Assembly (NCBI GenBank): GCA_031253545.1
Contig: JAIRWH010000016.1
Coordinates: 1-47,552, forward strand
Length of the DNA: 47,552 bases
From: Oscillospiraceae bacterium
GTDB lineage: Bacteria; Bacillota; Clostridia; Oscillospirales; UBA929
Direction of reading: 5' to 3'
In this document: in pieces, positions 24,761-37,200 of the stretch
Position numbering within the stretch: position 1 is the stretch's first letter
Layout of the letters: every line of letters starts with the position of its first letter
Notes under the pieces: model-generated
Told to the model about the DNA's origin: nothing
Seen by the model: only the letters and a program-made list of their open reading frames with translations
Databases searched by the model: none
Translations under genes and position numbers: made by a program

Positions 24761-26308
24761 ATGAACAATTTGAGCCCGCCGGCGGAAGGACCCGCCAAGT
24801 CTTCGGTGAAAAAGCTCCTCATTACCGCCGCCGCCGCCATATCCTTCGCGGCGGTCGTCTCCCTCGCGCTGTGGCTTATGTATCCGGCTATCCTCAAGGC
24901 TTCCGACCCGCAAAAGTATATGGAATACTCGTTCGCGAAAACAGCCGTTGCGCTCTCGAAGTCCGACGTATTTTTTACCACGCCGCGTTTAGACGGCAAG
25001 GAACCGTATTATTCCGCCGTATCCGCCGACGGGCTCAAGCTCATTGACGACAGCGGCGAGCTTGACTTGCCGTGGTTGCGCCTTACCGCCTCGACCCTTT
25101 TCGACAAACCCGGCAAGCGGGCGATGTTTCGCGTGGCCACGGGCTACGAGTCCGGCAATATCGCCCTTTTGCTGCACGCCGACGCGCAGAGGCTCACCTT
25201 CGGCTACAACGCGGATTCCTCGGTCGGCTGGTATGTGAACAACAAAACCTTCGGCAGTGAACTGAGCGAACTTGGGGTCGGGATTGACGAAGGTTTTGCC
25301 TTGGACTTGGAGCGTTACCTGTTTGCCGAAAACAACGCCGACACCCGGGGCGAGGAATACTCGAAGGCGCTTTTGGGTTTTTACAAGAAATTGAAGTTTA
25401 CTTCCGACGACCTCGCCTCCCCGCCCTCCCCGCTCTCCGGCCCGTTTACCGCCATGACCGCTGCCATTGACGAAGGCGACGCGAGGGATTTGCTGCAAGA
25501 CCTTACGGATATATACTTTGAGCAGTTTGCGGACGAACTTGAGGCGCTTGGGCTCGGCAGCCTGAAAAGCCAACTGCGCGCGGGCATAAAAGAGCTCGAA
25601 CTCGGCAAGGTTTCACTCACCTGCTTTATCAGCGGCAAGCATATTGTCCAAGCGGCCCGGCTCGGCATTGAGCCGCGCCGCGGGCAGTCCGTCGCCGTCA
25701 CGGTTGGTATGTGCGGCGAGCAGAACCTGCCGGACCATGTCTTTTTAAGCGGCGTTACGAATGACGACGGCGTGAAGAGCACGGTTTCCATAGACAGCCA
25801 AGGGCAGCATGTGCCGGTGGACGGCACGTTTACCGACGTGACCGTTATTAAGGGCACCGACATGGACACCGTGAAGCTCACCACCAAAATCACCAACGGC
25901 GGCAAGGCGAGCTTTACGGTGAGCTCCGGCGGCAAGGATATGCTCGCGTTGGAGGGAAGGTTTGAGTCCTCCGCCGAAGAGCTTACCGTGATAATCAACT
26001 CCGCCGAGTTTACCGCCGACACAAAGATTACCGCAACGCCGGCTTTCGCCTACGAGGCGCTCGCGAGCGGCGGCGGGGACGATACGCTCAGGGTCGAGGG
26101 CAAACTCGTCTTCTCTTGCGGCATGGCCGGACCTTCCGACTTCAACGCCCTGCCCGACAAACTGTACGCGCTGAAAGACTTCGACGGCGAACAACTTTTG
26201 CCGCTGCTGCGCGCGGGCGAAAGACTGCTGGCGGAAAACGACGCGCTCAACGCCGCCGTGGGCAGTCAGTTATATCTTCTGCTCGCTATGCTTGGGGTGG
26301 TGCTATGA
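24761..26308 (+). CDS. Single-pass membrane-anchored protein of unknown function in the arabinose operon
   Basis: I do not recognise this family. The protein has 515 aa: a short cytoplasmic N terminus rich in Pro/Ala/Lys, one membrane helix (about 18-40), and a long extracytoplasmic part of mixed alpha/beta character with few cysteines. Its second half contains repeated short beta phrases (VSIDSQGQHVPVDGT, FTVSSGGKDMLALEG) that may be tandem lipocalin- or DUF-like beta sheets. The C-terminal residues are hydrophobic ([12 protein letters not shown]). ATG 24761 has AAAGGAG nine bases upstream; a longer frame into the preceding gene is a shadow. It overlaps araA by four bases (ATGA), so it is co-translated with sugar enzymes, which is unexpected for a surface protein. 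Confidence 0.85.
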   Translation: MNNLSPPAEGPAKSSVKKLLITAAAAISFAAVVSLALWLMYPAILKASDPQKYMEYSFAKTAVALSKSDVFFTTPRLDGKEPYYSAVSADGLKLIDDSGELDLPWLRLTASTLFDKPGKRAMFRVATGYESGNIALLLHADAQRLTFGYNADSSVGWYVNNKTFGSELSELGVGIDEGFALDLERYLFAENNADTRGEEYSKALLGFYKKLKFTSDDLASPPSPLSGPFTAMTAAIDEGDARDLLQDLTDIYFEQFADELEALGLGSLKSQLRAGIKELELGKVSLTCFISGKHIVQAARLGIEPRRGQSVAVTVGMCGEQNLPDHVFLSGVTNDDGVKSTVSIDSQGQHVPVDGTFTDVTVIKGTDMDTVKLTTKITNGGKASFTVSSGGKDMLALEGRFESSAEELTVIINSAEFTADTKITATPAFAYEALASGGGDDTLRVEGKLVFSCGMAGPSDFNALPDKLYALKDFDGEQLLPLLRAGERLLAENDALNAAVGSQLYLLLAMLGVVL

Positions 26309-27771
26309 ACGGAAACAGGGGGCCCGTATTCCACTTCCTCACGGGCAGTCAGCACCTCTACGGCGAGGAGGCGTTGCGGCAGGTGGAGACGCATTCGCGT
26401 GAAATCGCCAATTACCTCTCCGCGCGGCTGCCCTTTAAGCTGCTTTTTGTGCCCGTGGTGAAAACGCACGGCGAAATACTCGACGCTTGCCGCAGGGCGC
26501 AGGCGGATTCTTGCTGCGCGGGCGTTATCACATGGATGCACACGTTCAGCCCGTCCAAAATGTGGATAGGCGGCTTGAAGGCGCTGTCTTTGCCCGTGCT
26601 GCACCTGCACACGCAGTATAACGCCGAGATACCGTTTGACGGCATTGACATGGACTTTATGAACATCAACCAGTCCGCCCACGGCGACCGCGAACACGGC
26701 TATATCTTCGCGCGCATGGGCAAAGCCCGAAAGATTGCCGTGGGCCACTACAAAGACGACGCGCTGGCGGCCAAAATCGCGTCGTGGATGCGTGTGGCGG
26801 CGGCGGCGCTCTTCGCCAAAGAATTGAAGGTAATGCGCTTAGGCGACAATATGCGCGATGTGGCCGTGACGGAAGGCGACAAGGTGGAGGCGCAGATAAG
26901 GTTCGGCTGGCAGGTCAATTACCGCGCCGTGGGCGAGCTTGCCGAGCATGTGAGCGCCGTGGGCGAGGCGGAGGTCGCCGGGCTCATGGGCGAATACGCC
27001 GACAAGTATATCATGAACACGCAAGACACCGCCGCCGTGCGCTATCAGGCAAAGTTGGAGCTTGGCCTGAAAACATTGCTCGACGCGCACGGCTGCGGCG
27101 CGTTTACCAATACGTTCGAGGACTTGCACGGTTTGGAGCAGCTGCCCGGACTGGCCTCGCAGCGGCTCATGGAGCAAGGCTACGGCTTCGGGCCGGAAGG
27201 CGACTGGAAAGTTTCCGCCCTGCTCGCCACCATAAAACACCTGACGGCCAACAAAGGCACGACGCTGATGGAGGATTACACCTACCACCTGAGCCCCGGC
27301 CATGAGGCCATACTCGGCGCGCATATGTTGGAAGTCTGCCCCACCATTGCGGAGCATAAGCCGAAAATCGAGGTGCACCCGCTGGGTATCGGCGGGAAGA
27401 ACCCGCCGGCGCGCCTTGTGTTCAACGGCAAGCCGGGCAAAGCCGTGTGCGTGTCGCTTGTGGATATGGGCGGCCGTCTGCGGCTCATAGTCTTGGACGT
27501 GCAGGCGATAGAGATACCGTTTGCCATGCCGCGCCTGCCCGTGGCGCGCGTGATGTGGAAGCCGGAGCCGGACTTTTTCATAGGGTGCGAAGCGTGGCTT
27601 TTGGCGGGCGGCGCGCACCATACCGTGTTGTCATACGATACCAACGCGGAGGAAATGGCCGACCTCGCGGAGATTATCGGCATTGAGTGCGTGCATATCG
27701 GCAAAGGTACCGACATCGCCGCGCTCGGCCGCGAGCTGCGCATGGGCAACCTGCTCTGGGCGGGAAGATGA
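26305..27771 (+). CDS. araA: L-arabinose isomerase
   Basis: Converts L-arabinose to L-ribulose in the cytoplasm. The 488-aa protein begins [14 protein letters not shown], as AraA does, and keeps the manganese-site environment: [31 protein letters not shown] and [29 protein letters not shown] and [16 protein letters not shown] are also family signatures. Its ATG overlaps the preceding stop (ATGA), and its own stop overlaps the kinase start in the same way, so the operon is translationally coupled. Confidence 0.95.
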
Positions 27772-29315
27772 GGCACTTTCTGGGCTTTGAGCTGGGCTCC
27801 ACCCGCGTGAAGGCCGTGCTCATTGACGAAAGGTTCGAGGCCGTGGCCTCCGGGGCGCGGGAGTGGGAAAACGAATGGCGCGACGGTTACTGGACATACG
27901 GCTTGGACGGCGCGTTCGATTGCCTGCGCGGCGCTTACGGCGACCTTTCCGCCGAACATAAAAGCAAATACGGCGCCGCGCCGCGGGTGGACGCCATCGG
28001 CATATCCGCCATGATGCACGGTTACCTCGCCTTCGACGCGGAGGGCGATTTGCTCACGCCTTTCCGCACATGGCGCAACACCACCACCGGGCAGGCTTCG
28101 CGCAAGCTCACCGAGGAGTTCGGTTTCTATATCCCGCAGCGCTGGAGCGTGGCGCATTTATATCAGGCCGCGCTCAACAAAGAACCGCATGTGGGGCGTT
28201 TGCGCTTCCTCACCACATTGGCGGGATATGTGCATTGGAAACTTACCGGGCGAAAGGCGGCGGGAGTGGGGGACGCGTCGGGCATTATGCCCCTCGGCCC
28301 GTCCGGCTTGGAATATGACACCGCCATGGCGCACCGTTTCCGTGAGCTTACGGGCATAGCCCCCGGCGATGTCCTGCCCGACATCAAGCCCGCCGGAGAG
28401 CACGCCGGCGGACTTACCGCCGAAGGGGCGCTGCTGCTCAGCCCGTCGGGCGAATTGGAGCCGGGCATACCGTGCTGCCCGCCGGAAGGTGACGCGGGCA
28501 CGGGCATGGTGGCCACCAACAGCGTCGCGGAGCGCACGGGCAATATCTCGGCGGGCACTTCCGTATTCGTTATGACCGTGTTGGAAAAACCGCTGCGCCG
28601 ACATTATGAGGAGATTGACGTAATCGCCACTCCCGCCGGAAAACCCGTGGCAATGGTGCATTGCAACAACTGCACGTCGGATATAGACGCTTGGGTGAAC
28701 CTGTTTTCCGAATCGCTTGAGCGCTTCGGCGCGAGGCCGGACAGAACCGCCTTGTTTGACGTGCTTTACGCGGAGGCGCTGAAAGGCGACCCGGACTGCG
28801 GCGGGCTTTTTTCCTGCAACTATGTGTCCGGCGAGCACCTCACGGGTTTCGCGGAGGGCCGCCCGCTGTTTGCCCGGCTGCCGGGCAGCCGTTTCACGTT
28901 GGCCAACTTCATGCGCGCCCATTTGTTTTCCTCTGTGGCCACCTTGAGAATCGGCATGGAAATACTCACCGAAAAAGAGAAAGTGCCGCTTGATTATCTC
29001 ACGGGTCACGGCGGGCTGTTTAAGGCAAGCGGCGTGGGGCAGCGACTTGTGGCGGCCGCGCTGAACGTGCCCGTGGCCGTGCCGCGCACGGCGGGGGAGG
29101 GCGGCGCTTGGGGCATCGCGCTGCTGGCGGCTTTCATGGTTCTGGGGCGGGAAGGCGAGAGCTTGGAAAGTTTCCTCGGCGAACGCGTATTCGCCCGGCA
29201 CCCCGCCGTGCCCGTTGAGCCTTCCGAGAGCGATGTGAAAGGTTTCGCGGCATATTTCGAGCGGTATAAGGCAGGGCTTGCCGCCGAACGCGCCGCCGTG
29301 GCGCACCTGAAATAG
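27768..29315 (+). CDS. araB: FGGY-family L-ribulokinase
   Basis: Sugar kinase of 515 aa. It starts [18 protein letters not shown], with the acidic/Gly phosphate-1 motif of the FGGY fold, and has a second ATPase half with [13 protein letters not shown] and [16 protein letters not shown]. The placement between araA and araD supports phosphorylation of L-ribulose at O5. The sequence looks closer to the short xylulokinase-like FGGY branch than to the classic 560-residue AraB, so the name rests on context as well as fold. The ATG overlaps the araA stop by four bases. Confidence 0.86.
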
Positions 29316-29319
29316 TTTT

Positions 29320-30003
29320 ATGCTTGAAGCGTTGAAAGAAGAGGTTCTGGCGGCCAACCTCATGTTGCCGGAGCTGGGGCTTGCCCGTTTCACATGGGGC
29401 AACGCGAGCGGCGCGGATCGCGCCTCCGGGTTTATTGTCATCAAACCGAGCGGCGTGGAATACGCCGCCATGCGCGAGGGCGACCTTGCCGTGGTGGATA
29501 TGGAGAGCGGCAGGCTCGTCGAGGGGAAAAAGCCGTCCTCGGACACGGCCGCCCACATAGCGCTGTATAAAGCCTTTCCGTTTATCGGCGGCGTGGCGCA
29601 CACGCACAGCCGCTTCGCCACGGTGTTCGCCCAACGCGAGAGCGGTATCCCCCCGCTCGGCACCACCCACGCCGACCATTTCCGCGGCGAAGTGCCCTGC
29701 GCGCGCGCCATGACCCCGGAGGAGCTCGCGGGCGACTATGAGCGCAACATCGGCCTTGTGGTCGCCGCCGCCTGCAAATCCCCGCGCGAGGTGCCGGGGG
29801 CGCTCGCGGCAAGGCACGGCCCGTTTGCATGGGGCGGCAGCCCGCGCGAGGCCGTGTTCAACGCCGCCGTGCTGGAGGAAGTGGCGTTATTGGCGTGGCA
29901 TAGCTTAGCGTTTCGCGAAACGCTGCCGCCGTTGCCGCCGGAGCTTGCCGACAGGCATTATTACAGAAAGCACGGCGAGAGCGCCTATTACGGGCAGGGG
30001 TGA
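29320..30003 (+). CDS. araD: L-ribulose-5-phosphate 4-epimerase
   Basis: Class II aldolase-type zinc enzyme of 227 aa that converts L-ribulose 5-phosphate to D-xylulose 5-phosphate, which enters the pentose phosphate pathway. Zinc ligands are visible in GVAHTHSRFA (H94, H96) and RHGPFAWG (H166). TWGNASG and IKPSGVEYAAM form the phosphate-binding part, and YYGQG ends the protein as in other AraD sequences. It follows araB by 4 bp and ends 16 bp before the convergent hisF-like gene, with no clear terminator between them. Confidence 0.95.
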   Translation: MLEALKEEVLAANLMLPELGLARFTWGNASGADRASGFIVIKPSGVEYAAMREGDLAVVDMESGRLVEGKKPSSDTAAHIALYKAFPFIGGVAHTHSRFATVFAQRESGIPPLGTTHADHFRGEVPCARAMTPEELAGDYERNIGLVVAAACKSPREVPGALAARHGPFAWGGSPREAVFNAAVLEEVALLAWHSLAFRETLPPLPPELADRHYYRKHGESAYYGQG

Positions 30004-30019: not shown

Positions 30020-30817
30020 TTATGCCGTAGTCGCTTGCGCGAACGGGCGCATGGGCACGCCGCAGGACGCGAGGTACTCTTTCAGTTCGCGCACGGAGTA
30101 ATTGCGCTCCAATCTGGGCGAATACAGCATACTGCTGATGATGGCCGCCTGCGCGTCCGTTTCCGTGAAGAGCCGCTTTAAGTGCTCCGGCGAGCCCGCG
30201 CCGCCGGAAGCAATGAGCGGCACGGACACGGCCTTTTCGGCCAAGCGCATCAGCGGGTAATCGTAGCCTTGCAGCGTGCCGTCGCAGTCAATGCTGTTCA
30301 CGCATATCTCGCCCGCGCCCAGCTCCTGCCCGCGCCGAAGCCATTCCAAAGCGTCAAGGCCCGTGGCCACCCTCGCGCCGTCTATATATACCTCGTAGCC
30401 GCAGGGCATCTTCGGCTCGCGCTTAACCTGCACGGACAATACCACGCACTGCGAACCAAACGCCTTCGCGCCCAGGGTGATAATCTGCGGGTTCCTCACG
30501 GCCATGGAGTCCACGCTGATTTTCTCCGCGCCCGCTTTCAGCGCCTCATACATACCGTCCAAGTCCTTGATGCCGCCGCCCACGGTAAACGGTATAAAGA
30601 CCATGCGCGCCACTTTCGCCACAGTTTGTATGTCAATACCGCGCTTTTCCGCGCTCGCCGTGATGTCATAAAAAATCAGCTCGTCAATCTGCGCTTCATA
30701 CATCTCCCTCGCCAATTCCTCGGCGGGCGCCACGTCTATGTTGTCTTGAAACTGCACGGCTTTTGTGACCCTGCCGCCGATGATGTCAAAACAGGCGATA
30801 AGCCTTTTAGTCAGCAT
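30020..30817 (-). CDS. HisF-like cyclase with exchanged active-site residues (N103D, D130Q)
   Basis: TIM-barrel protein of 265 aa, clearly homologous to HisF, which uses ammonia from HisH to make imidazole glycerol phosphate. It aligns to T. maritima HisF (recalled sequence) without gaps over the first 130 residues. D11 is kept in ACFDIIGGRV, and the ammonia-gate residues R5, E46, K99 and the equivalent of E167 are kept. However, catalytic D130 is Q (VVLSVQVKRE) and N103 is D (EKISVDSMAV). T171 is N (VNSIDCDG), as in HisF2/WbuZ relatives. No other his gene is present. ATG 30817 is chosen over 30823 because AAAGGGG is then correctly spaced. It overlaps hisH by 11 bp. True HisF of an unusual branch, or an amidating synthase for another substrate, are both possible. 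Confidence 0.85.
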   Translation of the reverse strand: MLTKRLIACFDIIGGRVTKAVQFQDNIDVAPAEELAREMYEAQIDELIFYDITASAEKRGIDIQTVAKVARMVFIPFTVGGGIKDLDGMYEALKAGAEKISVDSMAVRNPQIITLGAKAFGSQCVVLSVQVKREPKMPCGYEVYIDGARVATGLDALEWLRRGQELGAGEICVNSIDCDGTLQGYDYPLMRLAEKAVSVPLIASGGAGSPEHLKRLFTETDAQAAIISSMLYSPRLERNYSVRELKEYLASCGVPMRPFAQATTA

Positions 30818-31442
30818 TGCCATGCCCCTTTCCCGTAAGGTTCAGGAAACCCGAAAGCAGCCCCAACCCCGCGCTCCCGCTCTTTTCTATGTGAAACTGG
30901 GTGGCGTATATATTGCCGCGCCGGACGGCGGCCGTAAACAGCCCGCCGTAATCGGCCTGCCCCCATATATCCGCCGTGTCCTCCGGCTTCGCGCGGTATG
31001 AGTTCACAAAATAGAAGTGGCCGTCGGGCGGGGCTATTGGGTTATCCCCGGTAAAACGCACGAGATTCCAGCCCATTTGCGGCACCCTGACCTTCGTGCC
31101 GTCAAACCTTGCCACTTTCCCCTTCAGCCAGCCCAGACACACCGTGTCTTCTTCCTCGCTGTGCTCGAAGAGTATCTGCAAGCCCACGCATATGCCCATA
31201 AACAGCGCGCCGCGCCGCAAGACCGCGTCTTCGAGCGGGGCGGCAAGCCCCATGTCGCGCAGGGAATCCATGGTGGCTCTCGCGCTGCCCACGCCCGGCA
31301 GTATAATATGGGTGGCGCGCGCGATGTCGCCGGGGTCGCGGGCATACGCGGCGGCAAAGCCCAAGCGCTCCGCGGCGTGCATCACGCTGGGGGCGTTGCC
31401 CGCTTTGTAGTCTATCACGGCGATGCTGTGTTCAGTTTTCAT
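30807..31442 (-). CDS. HisH-like glutamine amidotransferase (glutaminase) subunit
   Basis: Class I glutaminase of 211 aa that would release ammonia from glutamine for the HisF-like partner. The nucleophile elbow GICVGLQIL and the catalytic dyad segment TQFHIEKSG are present. Departures from usual HisH are QFHIEKS instead of QFHPEKS, VPQMGWN instead of VPHMGWN, and FVNSY instead of FVHSY. These parallel the changes in the HisF partner and suggest a co-evolved divergent pair. The ATG at 31442 overlaps the ANTAR gene stop by 11 bp. The gene lies downstream of glutamine synthetase, its likely glutamine source. Confidence 0.87.
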   Translation of the reverse strand: MKTEHSIAVIDYKAGNAPSVMHAAERLGFAAAYARDPGDIARATHIILPGVGSARATMDSLRDMGLAAPLEDAVLRRGALFMGICVGLQILFEHSEEEDTVCLGWLKGKVARFDGTKVRVPQMGWNLVRFTGDNPIAPPDGHFYFVNSYRAKPEDTADIWGQADYGGLFTAAVRRGNIYATQFHIEKSGSAGLGLLSGFLNLTGKGHGNAD

Positions 31443-32001
31443 AGGTCCTCAATATTACCTCCGCAATCGCTTTTTTTGTGGAACGCATATCCATCGCTTG
31501 TTTTTCAATGGCTCTGTGCGCTTCCTTTTCGCTGATATTCATGCGCGAAATGAGCAGGCACTTTGCCCTGTCCACAATGCGCAGCTCCTCGATTTTCGCC
31601 CGCAGGCGCTCGTTTTCCGTGTGCATTGACCTCAGTTTGCCGCGCACGGAGCGGGCGAGCATGAGCGCCGACCAGAAGACTTGGCGGTTGATGGGTTTCG
31701 CCACCACGAGCACGCCGTTGTCTTCACACTCCGACGAGACCGATTCGTAATGCTCGCCGGACACGGCGAGGATAACCTGCGTCAGGCTGCCCGACGCCAC
31801 GGTCTTGGCAAAGTTTTCCCCCGTTTCGTCGCGCAAGGGCGCGTTGACGAGCACTAAGTCAAAGTCCCGCTCCAAGAGCAGCCTGCGCGCTTCGCCGCAG
31901 CTGCGCAGGGCGGCCACTTGCTTCACGGACGCGGAAGAAATAAGCTCCGCGAAAAAGGCGGTGCCCTTTTCCGTGCACGACACAATCAAGGCGTTGTCCA
32001 C
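31432..32001 (-). CDS. ANTAR-domain RNA-binding response regulator
   Basis: Protein of 189 aa. The N-terminal part (about 1-115) has the fold pattern of a receiver domain but lacks an obvious DD pair, so phosphorylation is doubtful. A helical linker (about 115-130) precedes the C-terminal ANTAR domain (about 132-186), with RAKCLLISRMNISEKEAHRAIE and then RSTKKAIAEVIL. ANTAR proteins bind paired RNA hairpins in leaders and prevent termination, often in nitrogen genes. The start is GTG 32001 with AAAGGGG upstream. It lies 13 bp after glnA, an arrangement known from other Clostridia, and controls this cluster or distant nitrogen genes by inference. Confidence 0.88.
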   Translation of the reverse strand: MDNALIVSCTEKGTAFFAELISSASVKQVAALRSCGEARRLLLERDFDLVLVNAPLRDETGENFAKTVASGSLTQVILAVSGEHYESVSSECEDNGVLVVAKPINRQVFWSALMLARSVRGKLRSMHTENERLRAKIEELRIVDRAKCLLISRMNISEKEAHRAIEKQAMDMRSTKKAIAEVILRTYEN

Positions 32002-32014
32002 CTATATGCCCCTT

Positions 32015-33265
32015 TCAGCGATTTTTCTCCGCGACCCATTTGCCGAGCAGCTCGTCGCCGAGCACGTCCTTCACAAGCTCGCTGCCTGCGGCAAGCGCCA
32101 CGGCTTCCGCGAGGGTCGCCGGCAGGCGCGTGAGCGTGCCCGTCACGCCTTCGTTTGCCGTTTGCATGTCAACGTCTAACGGCGGAGGGAGCGGCAGGCG
32201 GTTTTCCAAACCGCGCAACCCTGCGGAGATAATCAGCGCGAAAGCGAGGTAGGGGTTGCACGCGGGGTCGGGCGAGCGCAGCTCCATTCTCACTTTTTCG
32301 CCCGTGGCGGCGGGGATTCTGATGAGTTGGGAGCGGTTTTGGTGGGACCAGGACACATATTTGGGGGCCTGAAACGCGCCGAGGCGCTCATACGAGGACT
32401 CGACGGGGTTGAGGAAAGCCGTGATTTGCGGCACGGCCGCGAGCACCCCGGCGATAAAGCTCTCCGCCTCCGGGCAATGGCCTTCGCCCGTGTGCAGAAA
32501 CACATTGCGGCCTTCGCGCGAGAGCGAGATGTTGATGTGCAACCCGCTGCCTTCCGCGTCGGGCAGCGGCTTTGGGGAGAAGGACGCGCAAAGGCCGTGG
32601 CGGGCGGCCACGGCGGCCACGGTGGACTTGAAGGTCTGGAAGTTATCGGCGCTCGCGAGCGCGGTGTCGAAGCGGAAGTCAATCTCGTTTTGGCCCGGCC
32701 CCTGCTCGTGGTGTGACGCTTCGGGATATATGCCCGTTTCCTCCAAGGTCAGGCAAATCTCCCTGCGCACATCCTCCCCTTTGTCCGGCGGGGCGATGTC
32801 CAAGTAACCGCCCTTGTCAAGCGGCGTGCCGGTCGGCTCGCCGTGCTCGTCGGTCTTGAAAAGATAAAACTCGCACTCCGCGCCGATTTTGCACACATAG
32901 CCCAATTCCTCGCAGCGTGCGGCCGCTTTTTTCAGAATAGCCCTGCTGTCGTGGGCGTAGGGGGAGCCGTCGGGGTTTTTGATGTCGCAGTAAAAGCGCG
33001 CCACCCTGCCCGAACCCGGACGCCACGGCAAGAGCGAGAACGTGGACGGGTCGGGCAGCAAAAGCAAGTCCGAACGGGCGGTGTCCCTAAACCCCCGTAT
33101 GGCGTGGGCGTCGAAAGACACGCCGCAGCGGAAGGCGTTTTCCAGTTCGCCCGCCATGATTGCGATGTTCTTGGGCACCCCGAACAAATCGCAAAAGGTG
33201 AGCCGTATAAACTTCACGTCGTTTTCCAAAGCCTGCGCCAGCACGTCGCCGGATATGTCGAACAT
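32015..33265 (-). CDS. glnA: Type I glutamine synthetase
   Basis: Makes glutamine from glutamate, ammonia and ATP. The 416-aa protein is slightly shorter than most GlnA-alpha forms (about 440). Visible landmarks are CDLFGVPKNIAI, the substrate and metal strand GAECEFYLF, HHEQGPGQNEIDF, GSGLHINISL, the ATP/ammonium site NRSQLIRIPA and the glutamate segment MELRSPDPACNPYLA. The adenylylation-site Tyr context of beta-type enzymes is not evident, which fits feedback-type regulation in Gram-positives. ATG 33265 has AAAGGAGG upstream. The gap to glmS is only 74 bp with no clear promoter, so co-transcription with glmS is likely. Confidence 0.95.
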   Translation of the reverse strand: MFDISGDVLAQALENDVKFIRLTFCDLFGVPKNIAIMAGELENAFRCGVSFDAHAIRGFRDTARSDLLLLPDPSTFSLLPWRPGSGRVARFYCDIKNPDGSPYAHDSRAILKKAAARCEELGYVCKIGAECEFYLFKTDEHGEPTGTPLDKGGYLDIAPPDKGEDVRREICLTLEETGIYPEASHHEQGPGQNEIDFRFDTALASADNFQTFKSTVAAVAARHGLCASFSPKPLPDAEGSGLHINISLSREGRNVFLHTGEGHCPEAESFIAGVLAAVPQITAFLNPVESSYERLGAFQAPKYVSWSHQNRSQLIRIPAATGEKVRMELRSPDPACNPYLAFALIISAGLRGLENRLPLPPPLDVDMQTANEGVTGTLTRLPATLAEAVALAAGSELVKDVLGDELLGKWVAEKNR

Positions 33266-33339: not shown

Positions 33340-35148
33340 TTATTCCACCGTCACGCTCTTGGCCAAGTTACGCGGTTTATCTATATCAAGCCCTTTGTTG
33401 GCCGCCACATAATAGCTGAAAAGCTGCAGCACTATTACCGACAGCGACGGCGAGAAAAGCTCCGCCGTGTCCGGCAGGGCGATGTGCGTGAGCTTATCGC
33501 CGCTTTCCGCGTCCGGGTTTCGGCCGATGAGCATAACTTTCGCGCCGCGGCTGATAACCTGCTCGATATTGCTCATTATCTTGCCATACAGGCGCTCGCA
33601 GTTGGATATGGCCACCACGAGGGTCTCGTCTTCTATCAGCGAGATGGGGCCGTGCTTGAGCTCGCCGCCGGCGTATGCCTCGGAGTGGACGTATGAGATT
33701 TCCTTGAGCTTGAGCGAGCCTTCCAGCGCGATGGCGTAGTCTATGTTCCTGCCGATGTAAAACACGCTCTTATAGCCCACGCAAGACGCGGCGTATCTTT
33801 GTATGGTGTCCACCTGCGCCAATACGCTCGTGATTTTGTCCGGCAACGCCCAAAGCTCCGCTTGCAGCTCCTCGGCCCCCGCCGGGCTGAGCGCGCCGAG
33901 TTTCACGGCGAAGCGTATGGCAAGCGCGTACAGCAGCGCGAGCTGGGCGGAAAAGGCTTTCGTGGTGGCCACGGCGATTTCGGGCCCGGCGGCGGTGTAC
34001 ACGCACATGTCCGATTCCTTGGCGATGGCGCTGCCCACCACGTTGACGATGGCCAAGGTGGTCGCGCCCTTCGCCTTAGCCTCGCGCATGGCGGCAATAG
34101 TGTCCGCCGTCTCGCCGGACTGGCTGATGAGTATGACGAGCGCGGACGGGCCGATGTTGGCATCCCTGTAACGGAACTCGCTGGCAAGGTCCACTTCCAC
34201 GGGGGTGCGGCACAGCTTCTCGAATACGTACTTTGCCACAATGCCCGCGTTGTAGGCCGAGCCGCAGGCCGTGATTACGATTTTCTTCACGTTTGCTATG
34301 TCAATGCCGTCTATCACGTCTTTGTTCTCGCCGCTCACGGCGGAGCGTATGGTGTCGCGCAGCACCTTGGGCTGCTCCATAATCTCTTTGAGCATAAAGT
34401 GCGGCCAGCCGCCCTTTTCCGCGCTGTCCACACTCCATGTTATGGTTTTGGGTTCCTTCCGCACCGGCTCTTTGTCGGAGTTGTAAAACCGCACGCCGTC
34501 GCGGCGCAGCACGGCGATTTCCATGTCTTCGGGGTAATACACCGTGTCCGTGTGCTTGAGCACGGCGGGCACATCCGAGGCGAGGAAGCTGCCGTGGGGG
34601 GAAACGCCGATGATGAGCGGGTTGTCTTTCTTTATGGCAATGAGCGTGTCCGGGTCGTCCCGGCACATAATGCCCAAGGCATACGAGCCTTCTAACCTCG
34701 CCGCCACTTTGATAACCGTGTCCATAATATCGCCGTTGTAGTAATATTCGGCAAGTTGGGCAATAACCTCGCTGTCCGTCTGCGAGGCAAACTCTATGCC
34801 CCTGCTCTGCAATCGCTCCCTGAGCGCCTTGTGGTTTTCGATAATGCCGTTGTGCACCACGGCAATTCTGCTCCGGCTGCCTAAATGCGGGTGGGAGTTT
34901 ATGTCAGACGGTTCGCCGTGGGTGGCCCAGCGCGTGTGGCCGATAGCCACACGGCCGCGCAGCGGGTGCGCGGCAATCTCGCTTTCCAACACACTCAGCC
35001 TGCCCTTGCGCTTGACCACCTCGAAGCCGCCGCCCGTAAACACGGCCAATCCGGCCGAATCGTAGCCCCTGTACTCTAACTTTTTCAGGCCTTCCACAAT
35101 CAGCCCCACGGCGTCCTCGTCGCCGACATACCCTATTATACCGCACAT
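33340..35148 (-). CDS. glmS: Glutamine-fructose-6-phosphate aminotransferase (isomerizing)
   Basis: First step of UDP-GlcNAc synthesis: it transfers the amide nitrogen of glutamine to fructose 6-phosphate. The 602-aa protein has the N-terminal glutaminase domain with nucleophile C2 (MCGIIGYVG) and GHTRWATHGEPS. Two SIS sugar-binding domains follow, including ITACGSAYNAG, ISQSGETADT and the C-terminal DKPRNLAKSVTVE that all GlmS proteins share. Its promoter is at 35288-35316 and the leader is structured. No glmS ribozyme was recognised. It heads a minus-strand series glmS-glnA-ANTAR-hisH-hisF whose enzymes all make or use glutamine. Confidence 0.97.
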   Translation of the reverse strand: MCGIIGYVGDEDAVGLIVEGLKKLEYRGYDSAGLAVFTGGGFEVVKRKGRLSVLESEIAAHPLRGRVAIGHTRWATHGEPSDINSHPHLGSRSRIAVVHNGIIENHKALRERLQSRGIEFASQTDSEVIAQLAEYYYNGDIMDTVIKVAARLEGSYALGIMCRDDPDTLIAIKKDNPLIIGVSPHGSFLASDVPAVLKHTDTVYYPEDMEIAVLRRDGVRFYNSDKEPVRKEPKTITWSVDSAEKGGWPHFMLKEIMEQPKVLRDTIRSAVSGENKDVIDGIDIANVKKIVITACGSAYNAGIVAKYVFEKLCRTPVEVDLASEFRYRDANIGPSALVILISQSGETADTIAAMREAKAKGATTLAIVNVVGSAIAKESDMCVYTAAGPEIAVATTKAFSAQLALLYALAIRFAVKLGALSPAGAEELQAELWALPDKITSVLAQVDTIQRYAASCVGYKSVFYIGRNIDYAIALEGSLKLKEISYVHSEAYAGGELKHGPISLIEDETLVVAISNCERLYGKIMSNIEQVISRGAKVMLIGRNPDAESGDKLTHIALPDTAELFSPSLSVIVLQLFSYYVAANKGLDIDKPRNLAKSVTVE

Positions 35149-35352: not shown

Positions 35353-37200
35353 CTAATACCCAATACGCCCGTCCGAGCCGTCAAGGTTCATGGTATACGC
35401 CCTGCCGCTGCCGCCCTCAAAGCAAAAGAACCTGCCTGCGGCGATGCTGATGTCGTAATATTCGCCGCTTGCCACCTCCCTCTTGCCCGTGCCGTCGGCG
35501 TTCACGGCGCTGAGCGCGCCGAGGCTGTAATCGCAGTAATACACGGTGCCGCCCTCCGCGTTGACGTAACGCGTGTGGCCGCCGTCCAAAAGCCGCCTGT
35601 TCGTGCCGTCTGTGTCCATGGCATACAGTTTGTATCCGTCGCGCGCGTCCGCGTAAAATATGCTGCCGCCCGACACGACCATGTCCGCCACGCTGTCGCC
35701 GCCGAGCTTGCGCTTGTTTGAGCCGTCGAGGTTCATGGCGCGCGGGGTCAGGCCGTCGCCCGGATTGACGTAGTATATGGTATCGCCTTCCACGCAGAGA
35801 TACCATGACCTGTCGAGGTTTAGGAAGCGGCGCTCCGAGCCGTCGGGGTTCATGGCGTAGATTCTTTCGTTGTCATCGTAATTGACGTAATATATGCCGT
35901 TTTCAAGCACATTGATATACCAAGACGGGTCGTCGCATAGCTTCCGCCTGTTTTTGCCGTCGGTGTCAACGCAATACAGCCTGTTGCGGTCGCTGCGGTT
36001 TTGGTAATATATCACCCCGTCCATTACGTTGATATACCGCGCCTCGTCGCCGCACACCTCGCGCCTGTCCGTGCCGTCGAGCCTCATGGAGCAGAGTGTG
36101 CCGGAGGTATCGTCGTGGTAATAGAGCCTGCCGCCGTATTCGGCCACGATACCGCCGTTTGTGATATTGCCCGACGTGTTGCCGCGCCCGGCGGGCGGGG
36201 GCGGAGGGGCGGAGGGCGTGTGCGCATATTCGTTCAGTTCCTGCTTGTCCGAGCCGTCGAGCCTTATGGTATACAGCTTGCCGCCGTCGCTGTAATTGCG
36301 GTAATAAAGCCTGTCGTTTGCCACGTTAATAAACCGCGTCTCGTCGCCGCACAAAAGACGGCGGTTTGTGCCGTCGGCGTTCATGGAGTAGAGTTTGCCG
36401 CCGTCGCCGTAATTGACGTAGAACACCTTCCCGCCCGACGCGTTGACATAGTCCGAGTCGTCTTCGTTGAGCCGCCGCCGGGTGCCTCCGTTGACGCTCA
36501 TCGCATATATGCTGTTTCCCGCGAGCCGATTGGTGAAGAATATATCCTCGCCCTCCGAAACAAGGAATCCGGCCGTGAAACCGCGCTCTGCCTTGTTGTC
36601 GCCGCCGTCGAGGCTCATCACGTTGAGCAAGCCGCCGTCCGCGCCGCCTCCGAGGTAATATATTTTCTCGCCGCTGACACCGATAAAGCGCGAATCGGTG
36701 CCGGCAAGCATACGGTTGCCGCTGCCGTCCGCCCTAACGGTATACAGCATACCGCCTTTGCTGTCGTTGCGGTAATAGAGCCTGCCGCCCAGCGCGTTGA
36801 TATAGTACGAACGCGCGTCGTTGAGCGCGCGCCTGTTTTTGCCGTCGGTGCCGATGGCGTAGAGCCTGTTCCCGTCGCTGCCGTTGCTGTAATACACGGT
36901 GTCGCCTATCACGTTGATATACTGCGATATATCGTCGTTGAGCCTGCGCTTGTCGCCGCCGTCGATACTCATCGCCCAGAGTCTGTATCCGTCGCTCACA
37001 TTGCAGTAATAAAGCGTGTCGCCCTGGCTTGCCACAAGGCCGTAATTGGCTATATTGCCCGAAGAGTTGCCGCGCTCGTTGACCGGGGGTGACGGCGAGG
37101 GGGCGGGGCTTTCCGAAGGCGAAAGGCCGCAAGACACAAGAGTAAGCAGCAGCCCCGCCGCGAGGGCGAGGGCGAGAGAGGGCAGGCAACCTGCGCGCAC
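35353..37200 (-). CDS. Lipoprotein with two seven-repeat DUF5050-like beta-propellers
   Basis: Surface lipoprotein of 615 aa with lipobox LVSC (C24) and a Ser/Pro spacer. It is built of repeats of about 40 residues with the pattern (L/V/I)YYxNxxDGxxLYxMxxDGxxxRxLxxD, as in DUF5050/TolB-like propellers. I count seven repeats in about 44-325 and seven in about 339-615, joined by a proline-rich linker (APPPPPAG). Both halves open with near-identical phrases, RGNSSGNIANYGLVA and RGNTSGNITNGGIVA, so the gene arose by duplication of a whole propeller. The start is GTG 37200 with GGAGGTG eight bases upstream and a promoter at 37233-37261. The ligand is unknown. It is transcribed alone. Confidence 0.87.
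   Translation of the reverse strand: MRAGCLPSLALALAAGLLLTLVSCGLSPSESPAPSPSPPVNERGNSSGNIANYGLVASQGDTLYYCNVSDGYRLWAMSIDGGDKRRLNDDISQYINVIGDTVYYSNGSDGNRLYAIGTDGKNRRALNDARSYYINALGGRLYYRNDSKGGMLYTVRADGSGNRMLAGTDSRFIGVSGEKIYYLGGGADGGLLNVMSLDGGDNKAERGFTAGFLVSEGEDIFFTNRLAGNSIYAMSVNGGTRRRLNEDDSDYVNASGGKVFYVNYGDGGKLYSMNADGTNRRLLCGDETRFINVANDRLYYRNYSDGGKLYTIRLDGSDKQELNEYAHTPSAPPPPPAGRGNTSGNITNGGIVAEYGGRLYYHDDTSGTLCSMRLDGTDRREVCGDEARYINVMDGVIYYQNRSDRNRLYCVDTDGKNRRKLCDDPSWYINVLENGIYYVNYDDNERIYAMNPDGSERRFLNLDRSWYLCVEGDTIYYVNPGDGLTPRAMNLDGSNKRKLGGDSVADMVVSGGSIFYADARDGYKLYAMDTDGTNRRLLDGGHTRYVNAEGGTVYYCDYSLGALSAVNADGTGKREVASGEYYDISIAAGRFFCFEGGSGRAYTMNLDGSDGRIGY

Follow-up and report, generated by a model that had tools for sequence, protein, structure and literature searches.

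A HisF clade with Asp103 and Gln130 as a probable imidazole glycerol phosphate synthase with a putatively relocated catalytic base

HisF, the cyclase subunit of imidazole glycerol phosphate synthase (IGPS), serves as a model in studies of barrel evolution, allostery and design, and its Asp130 is regarded as an essential catalytic residue. Here we analyse a hisH–hisF pair in a 47,552-nucleotide stretch of DNA from an Oscillospiraceae bacterium (contig JAIRWH010000016.1 of assembly GCA_031253545.1; hereafter referred to as the window), whose HisF carries Asp at position 103 and Gln at position 130 (Thermotoga maritima numbering). Our preferred reading, to which we assign a probability of about 0.72, is that the pair is a working IGPS, the only one of its genome, in which the catalytic base has been relocated from D130 to D103. 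If true, this natural clade, which apparently makes histidine with Gln130 and Asp103, would clearly exemplify the shift of a catalytic residue between neighbouring strands. The evolutionary path would be testable, because the swap comes down to two residues and the clade has a known sister group of ordinary HisF, and curated models and catalytic-residue rules would overlook or misname these enzymes.

Active site and clade of the variant HisF

A phmmer alignment with solved HisF sequences places window D105 opposite T. maritima N103 (SVDS versus SINT) and window Q132 opposite D130 (LSVQVKR versus VAIDAKR), and it has no gaps across this stretch. This alignment bears out an earlier sequence-only reading of the DNA, which had reported N103D and D130Q with D11, R5, E46 and K99 kept, and whose coordinates, strand and frames are correct. 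The window hisF retains D11, K19, E46, K99, E167 and D176; these residues and S201 are conserved throughout the clade, R5 is missing in one member only, and the HisF gate residues are likewise retained. An AlphaFold2 model of the window HisF has the HisF barrel (mean predicted local distance difference test score 91, predicted template modelling score 0.89), with residues 103 and 130 on the adjacent strands 4 and 5, and the Protein Data Bank (PDB) matches listed for it are HisF or HisF-derived designs throughout.

D103/Q130 occurs in all 68 distinct relatives (58–83% identity), whereas 186 ordinary HisF sequences have D130 without exception and carry N (180), C (3), S (2) or G (1) at position 103. 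The relatives include 52 loci from a scan of genome contigs (64–83% identity), every one D103/Q130, and additional members taken from the window's family and from Spirochaetota; about 100 ordinary HisF for comparison came from other Bacillota and spirochaetes, and a phylum-level search that used the WbuZ model returned mostly ordinary HisF and served only to supply sequences for comparison. Neither N103D alone nor D130Q alone is present among these 254 distinct sequences, and yeast HIS7 has Gly at position 103 (PMC5980557). Small uncharged residues thus appear to be tolerated at position 103, and position 130 appears unvarying outside the clade. Within the window's class, matches of at least 66% identity were found in only 6 of 393 genomes, the window genome included, the other matches listed being 43–50% identical. 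Chance or sequencing error is ruled out by the invariance of D103/Q130 in 68 distinct sequences. Moreover, the variant genes are under strong purifying selection, as the median pairwise ratio of non-synonymous to synonymous substitution rates within the clade is 0.15.

The exchange of an acid and an amide across the active site, as the sequence-only reading described it, holds across the clade (68 of 68 versus 0 of 186 ordinary sequences), but it is accompanied by others: roughly ten more positions, near-invariant in ordinary HisF, are altered, among them G20A, P32A, G145A, L222I, A224S and H228Y, with A20 present in 80 of 81 clade rows. Against the HisF model TIGR00735 (cut-off 294.55 bits), most clade members score 261–294 bits and one (G329) scores 302.9. 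This model is the best-scoring NCBIfam family for the window HisF, although the score lies below the cut-off, and no dedicated NCBIfam model for the variant is among the profile matches. The open-access papers searched did not describe any naturally occurring D130Q or N103D HisF.

In a tree computed without columns 103 and 130, one branch separates all D103/Q130 rows from the rest (Shimodaira–Hasegawa-like approximate likelihood ratio test (SH-aLRT) support 99), and the clade groups with spirochaete-type ordinary HisF (SH-aLRT 99), together with the single rows L108 and L155. Since the D103/Q130 rows form a single clade, the tree indicates that both residues changed in a single event on the stem branch, where the roughly ten other changes were fixed too. 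The co-variation that the sequence-only reading had proposed to check is present, in that both changes always occur together and are invariant in the clade, though they represent one inherited event. The sister spirochaete-type HisF (L142–L166) share Y50, N171 and E98 with the variant and stand beside an ordinary HisH, but they retain N103/D130, H228 and the HisH motif FVH, and also HPEKS except in L155. The clade later spread in a star-like pattern across records whose titles name Oscillospiraceae, Treponema, Endomicrobium, Chitinispirillia and Planctomycetes, and this pattern fits gene transfer among gut bacteria; some of these titles may reflect misbinned metagenome contigs.

The partner HisH has diverged as well. 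Its Cys-His-Glu triad is intact in all 75 variant-paired HisH, and these all carry FVN (FVNSY/F), which is absent from 48 ordinary HisH, where FVH is found in every case. The residue after the catalytic His, the Pro of HPEKS, is non-proline in 75 of 75 variant-paired HisH as compared with 1 of 48 ordinary ones (L155). Thus, the three unusual HisH substitutions listed earlier are all present, and FVNSY and the proline loss are specific to the clade, but VPQ (VPQMGWN in the window) is not, as 5 of 48 ordinary HisH also have it. In L155 (genome G469), an ordinary N103/D130 HisF stands beside a HisH that already has QFHLEKS and IDYKAGN, and the proline loss may for this reason predate the swap in HisF.

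Histidine-pathway genes in the carrier genomes

The window genome (97% complete) has a hisD-hisC-hisB-hisA-hisI-hisE cluster without hisH or hisF on another contig and HisG on a third, and just two HisA/HisF-family members of this genome score above the cut-off, the HisA of that cluster and the variant HisF. A second hisF within a complete his operon, which the sequence-only reading had suggested looking for, was not found in this genome. That reading had also asked whether the gene is the only hisF of its genome, which it is, and whether D103/Q130 is ordinary across HisF, which it clearly is not (0 of 186).

Among 54 distinct carrier genomes, the variant is the sole HisF in 31, and 22 also have a verified ordinary HisF; the remaining carrier (G398), which has a further HisF of unassigned type, was counted separately. 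Herbinix hemicellulosilytica has both kinds. At least one of HisB, HisD and HisG is present in 30 of the 31 sole carriers. The exception, G397, is the only one of the 54 carriers that lacks all three, and HisA was likewise not found in it; its his genes may have been lost in assembly, or it may be a real auxotroph. HisB is also present in nine additional sole carriers, which came from the searches of the family and of the spirochaetes; one of the nine is a spirochaete whose assembly lies nearly all in a single 2.7 Mb contig. Furthermore, in Defluviitaleaceae the variant lies inside a complete his operon. In L026, the variant pair begins a contiguous hisH-hisF-hisG-hisD-hisC-hisB-hisA-hisIE run whose other genes match their own family models, while its HisF is again slightly below the HisF cut-off; L047 has the run hisF-hisG-hisD-hisC-hisB-hisA-hisIE with a variant hisF, and in L302 a hisZ-like gene adjoins the variant. 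Sole-HisF status with his genes elsewhere, and membership in his operons, would be difficult to account for if the variant did not carry out the IGPS reaction, and it very probably has this function in the sole carriers, judging from gene content and sequence.

Several genomes have incomplete sets. Three rumen genomes among the sole carriers (G437, G438 and G439; L051–L053; Thermoguttaceae-type, with Planctomycetota titles) have a variant hisHF, HisA and HisB and no HisD or HisG match. In the Fibrobacterota/Chitinispirillia carriers L311, L312, L313 and L314, which have hisC-hisB, no HisA was found by the HisF model or beside hisB, so that HisA is either very diverged or the step is missing. 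In G455, of the window's genus (94% complete), HisB is present and HisF of neither kind was found, through either an assembly gap or loss.

His genes lie near the variant in only 4 of 39 long loci, whereas 28 of the 39 have glutamine or nitrogen genes within about 6 kb. The genes counted were guaA, carB, pyrG, purL, glmS, gatCAB, glnA, ANTAR, gdhA, argG, asnA and a second glutamine synthetase; outside the window, the names gat, ANTAR and second glutamine synthetase rest on sequence similarity judged by eye. This setting suggests that the pair may be under shared control by nitrogen or glutamine supply. Genome G449 carries two D103/Q130 hisF genes: one belongs to the usual pair, within the run carB-guaA-pyrG-hisH-hisF-dapL-gatC-purL (L300), and the other (L299:5984-6766, on G449:C7) has no adjacent hisH and lies beside genes for an aminotransferase and a type III-like glutamine synthetase.

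Proposed mechanism and alternatives

In T. maritima HisF, D11 is described as the general acid and D130 as the general base (PMC11350729). In the proposed mechanism, HisH would hydrolyse glutamine, and the ammonia would travel through the HisF barrel to the site at which HisF would convert N′-[(5′-phosphoribulosyl)formimino]-5-aminoimidazole-4-carboxamide ribonucleotide to imidazole glycerol phosphate and 5-aminoimidazole-4-carboxamide ribonucleotide. The strand 5 base D130 would have become Gln and Asn103 on the adjacent strand 4 would have become Asp, with D103 taking the general-base role, Q130 the amide role and D11 remaining the general acid, and with the surrounding shell re-tuned as part of the compensation. 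We slightly favour D103 as the general base. Such compensation would be the simplest account, because the clade is conserved despite changes each of which is harmful on its own in T. maritima. The pair would have been relocated from the his cluster into a glmS-glnA-ANTAR operon, and its expression would probably be tied to nitrogen or glutamine status.

Several points weigh against this mechanism. Both D11 and D130 are reported as essential in T. maritima (PMC5919458, PMC11350729). When 26 T. maritima active-site positions, N103 and D130 included, were randomised, the complementing variants were changed at nine positions, neither of these two among them, although only a dozen variants were reported (PMC4565649). 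In addition, G20A alone lowers the T. maritima kcat from 2.4 to 0.022 per second, about 100-fold (PMC11350729), and the clade has A20. The co-change is one inherited event rather than repeated co-variation, and an ordinary HisF is kept beside the variant in the 22 genomes with both kinds.

The sequence-only reading had offered two explanations, a true HisHF with a compensated active site and a glutamine-dependent synthase acting on a non-histidine substrate. The second would apply at least where ordinary HisF coexists, with the nitrogen neighbourhood as the real home of the pair; it draws on the 22 genomes with both kinds, on the glutamine and nitrogen neighbours in 28 of 39 long loci, and on the joint change of about ten near-invariant positions, several of them near the active site. 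We nevertheless consider it unlikely, as the variant is the sole HisF alongside otherwise complete his genes in many genomes, lies in full his operons in L026 and L047, and is accompanied by HisB, HisD or HisG in all but one of 54 carriers. A distinct role confined to genomes with both kinds is similarly doubtful. So is a broader version, in which D103/Q130 HisHF would be an additional type of IGPS-like synthase that has a substrate or regulatory role of its own, belongs to a nitrogen-assimilation supercluster, has spread by gene transfer over several phyla of gut bacteria and has replaced ordinary HisF at the histidine step in some lineages. We favour a true HisHF, because the variant is the only HisF of the window genome, the his cluster there lacks hisHF, relatives carry it within a complete his operon and almost all carriers have other his genes.

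It is less likely still that the loss of D130 has crippled the cyclase, leaving a complex whose main work is to hydrolyse glutamine or supply ammonia, or a slow enzyme retained for a regulatory purpose. The reported essentiality of D130 and the roughly 100-fold slowing by G20A (PMC5919458, PMC11350729) point that way, but strong purifying selection, the invariance of D11, D103 and D176, and the presence of the variant as the sole copy alongside his genes argue against it. An added phosphoribosylanthranilate isomerase (TrpF) activity is very improbable: a neutral residue at position 130 is known to confer some TrpF activity on T. maritima HisF, and 12 of 36 carriers searched have no TrpF match, but an acid is restored nearby at 103 and the window genome has its own TrpF (G000:C86, 89 bits), so that bifunctionality is not required there as a reason for Q130. 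The engineered T. maritima D130V (for example, PDB 4ewn, D130V+D176V) also replaces the acid at 130 with a neutral residue, but it is a laboratory variant without a matching N103D.

An identity as a HisF2/WbuZ-type ammonia channel for sugar acetamidino modification is rejected: these proteins and AglZ are likewise HisF-fold partners of a HisH-like glutaminase, and WbuZ is the second-best NCBIfam match, but the scores of 218 bits for WbuZ (TIGR03572, cut-off 299.7) and 182 bits for AglZ/HisF2 (NF038364, cut-off 310) are far too low, the variant is the sole HisF in his-positive genomes, and its context is histidine or nitrogen metabolism, with no sugar-modification neighbours recognised and no sugar-amidation genes among the recurrent neighbour clusters, which are glutamine/nitrogen or his genes.

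The closest known system is the HisF/HisH IGPS itself (TIGR00735/TIGR01855; T. maritima 1thf, 7ac8), with which the variant shares fold, length, the six HisF residues retained in the window, the HisH triad, the pairing and, in some relatives, the place in the his operon. It differs in N103D, D130Q and the other HisF changes, in the H-to-N change in FVHSY and the lost proline of HPEKS in HisH, in its score under the TIGR00735 cut-off and in its mostly relocated position beside glutamine-metabolism genes. Of the catalytic pair D11 and D130 it has only D11, with Gln130 in 68 of 68. We would file the variant as probably working like HisF and not as a standard member.

The window operon and its surroundings

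The earlier identification of the neighbours as glnA, glmS and an ANTAR regulator agrees with their family matches (Table 1), and, as had been noted, the pair has no other his gene nearby: none of the genome's his genes was found on this contig besides the two. Relocation of the pair would account for the missing his neighbours, given the glutamine/nitrogen setting in most carriers.

Table 1 Features of the hisHF locus in the window
Feature	Position	Strand	Remarks
hisF, D103/Q130 variant cyclase subunit	30020..30823	-	267 aa; TIGR00735 278.4 bits, cut-off 294.55; PF00977 213 bits
Codon of window D105 (T. maritima position 103)	30509..30511	-	Asn in 180/186 ordinary HisF
Codon of window Q132 (T. 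maritima position 130)	30428..30430	-	Asp in 186/186 ordinary HisF
hisH, glutaminase partner with FVNSY and QFHIEKS	30807..31442	-	TIGR01855 187 bits, above cut-off 105.4
ANTAR-domain regulator	31432..32001	-	PF03861 49.8 bits; overlaps hisH start by 11 bases
glnA-like glutamine synthetase	32015..33265	-	PF00120 and PF03951; TIGR00653 378 bits, below cut-off
glmS, glutamine--fructose-6-phosphate transaminase	33340..35148	-	TIGR01135 757 bits, above cut-off

The adjoining hisH and hisF overlap by 17 bases, and the true start of hisF is likely Met3. The five genes glmS-glnA-ANTAR-hisH-hisF probably form one transcription unit with glmS first, and the same order is found in loci L023 and L039. 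An Rfam search around the operon found no element. On the plus strand, an arabinose-type operon (window 26116-30003; araA-like, xylB-like kinase and araD-like epimerase genes) converges on hisF with a 16-base gap, and xylB-araD genes likewise adjoin the variant hisHF in L030 and L043. Upstream of glmS on the same strand (window 35353-37200) lies a gene for a secreted-looking protein of 615 aa with repeated YY-N-DG(G/N)-LY-M--DG units.
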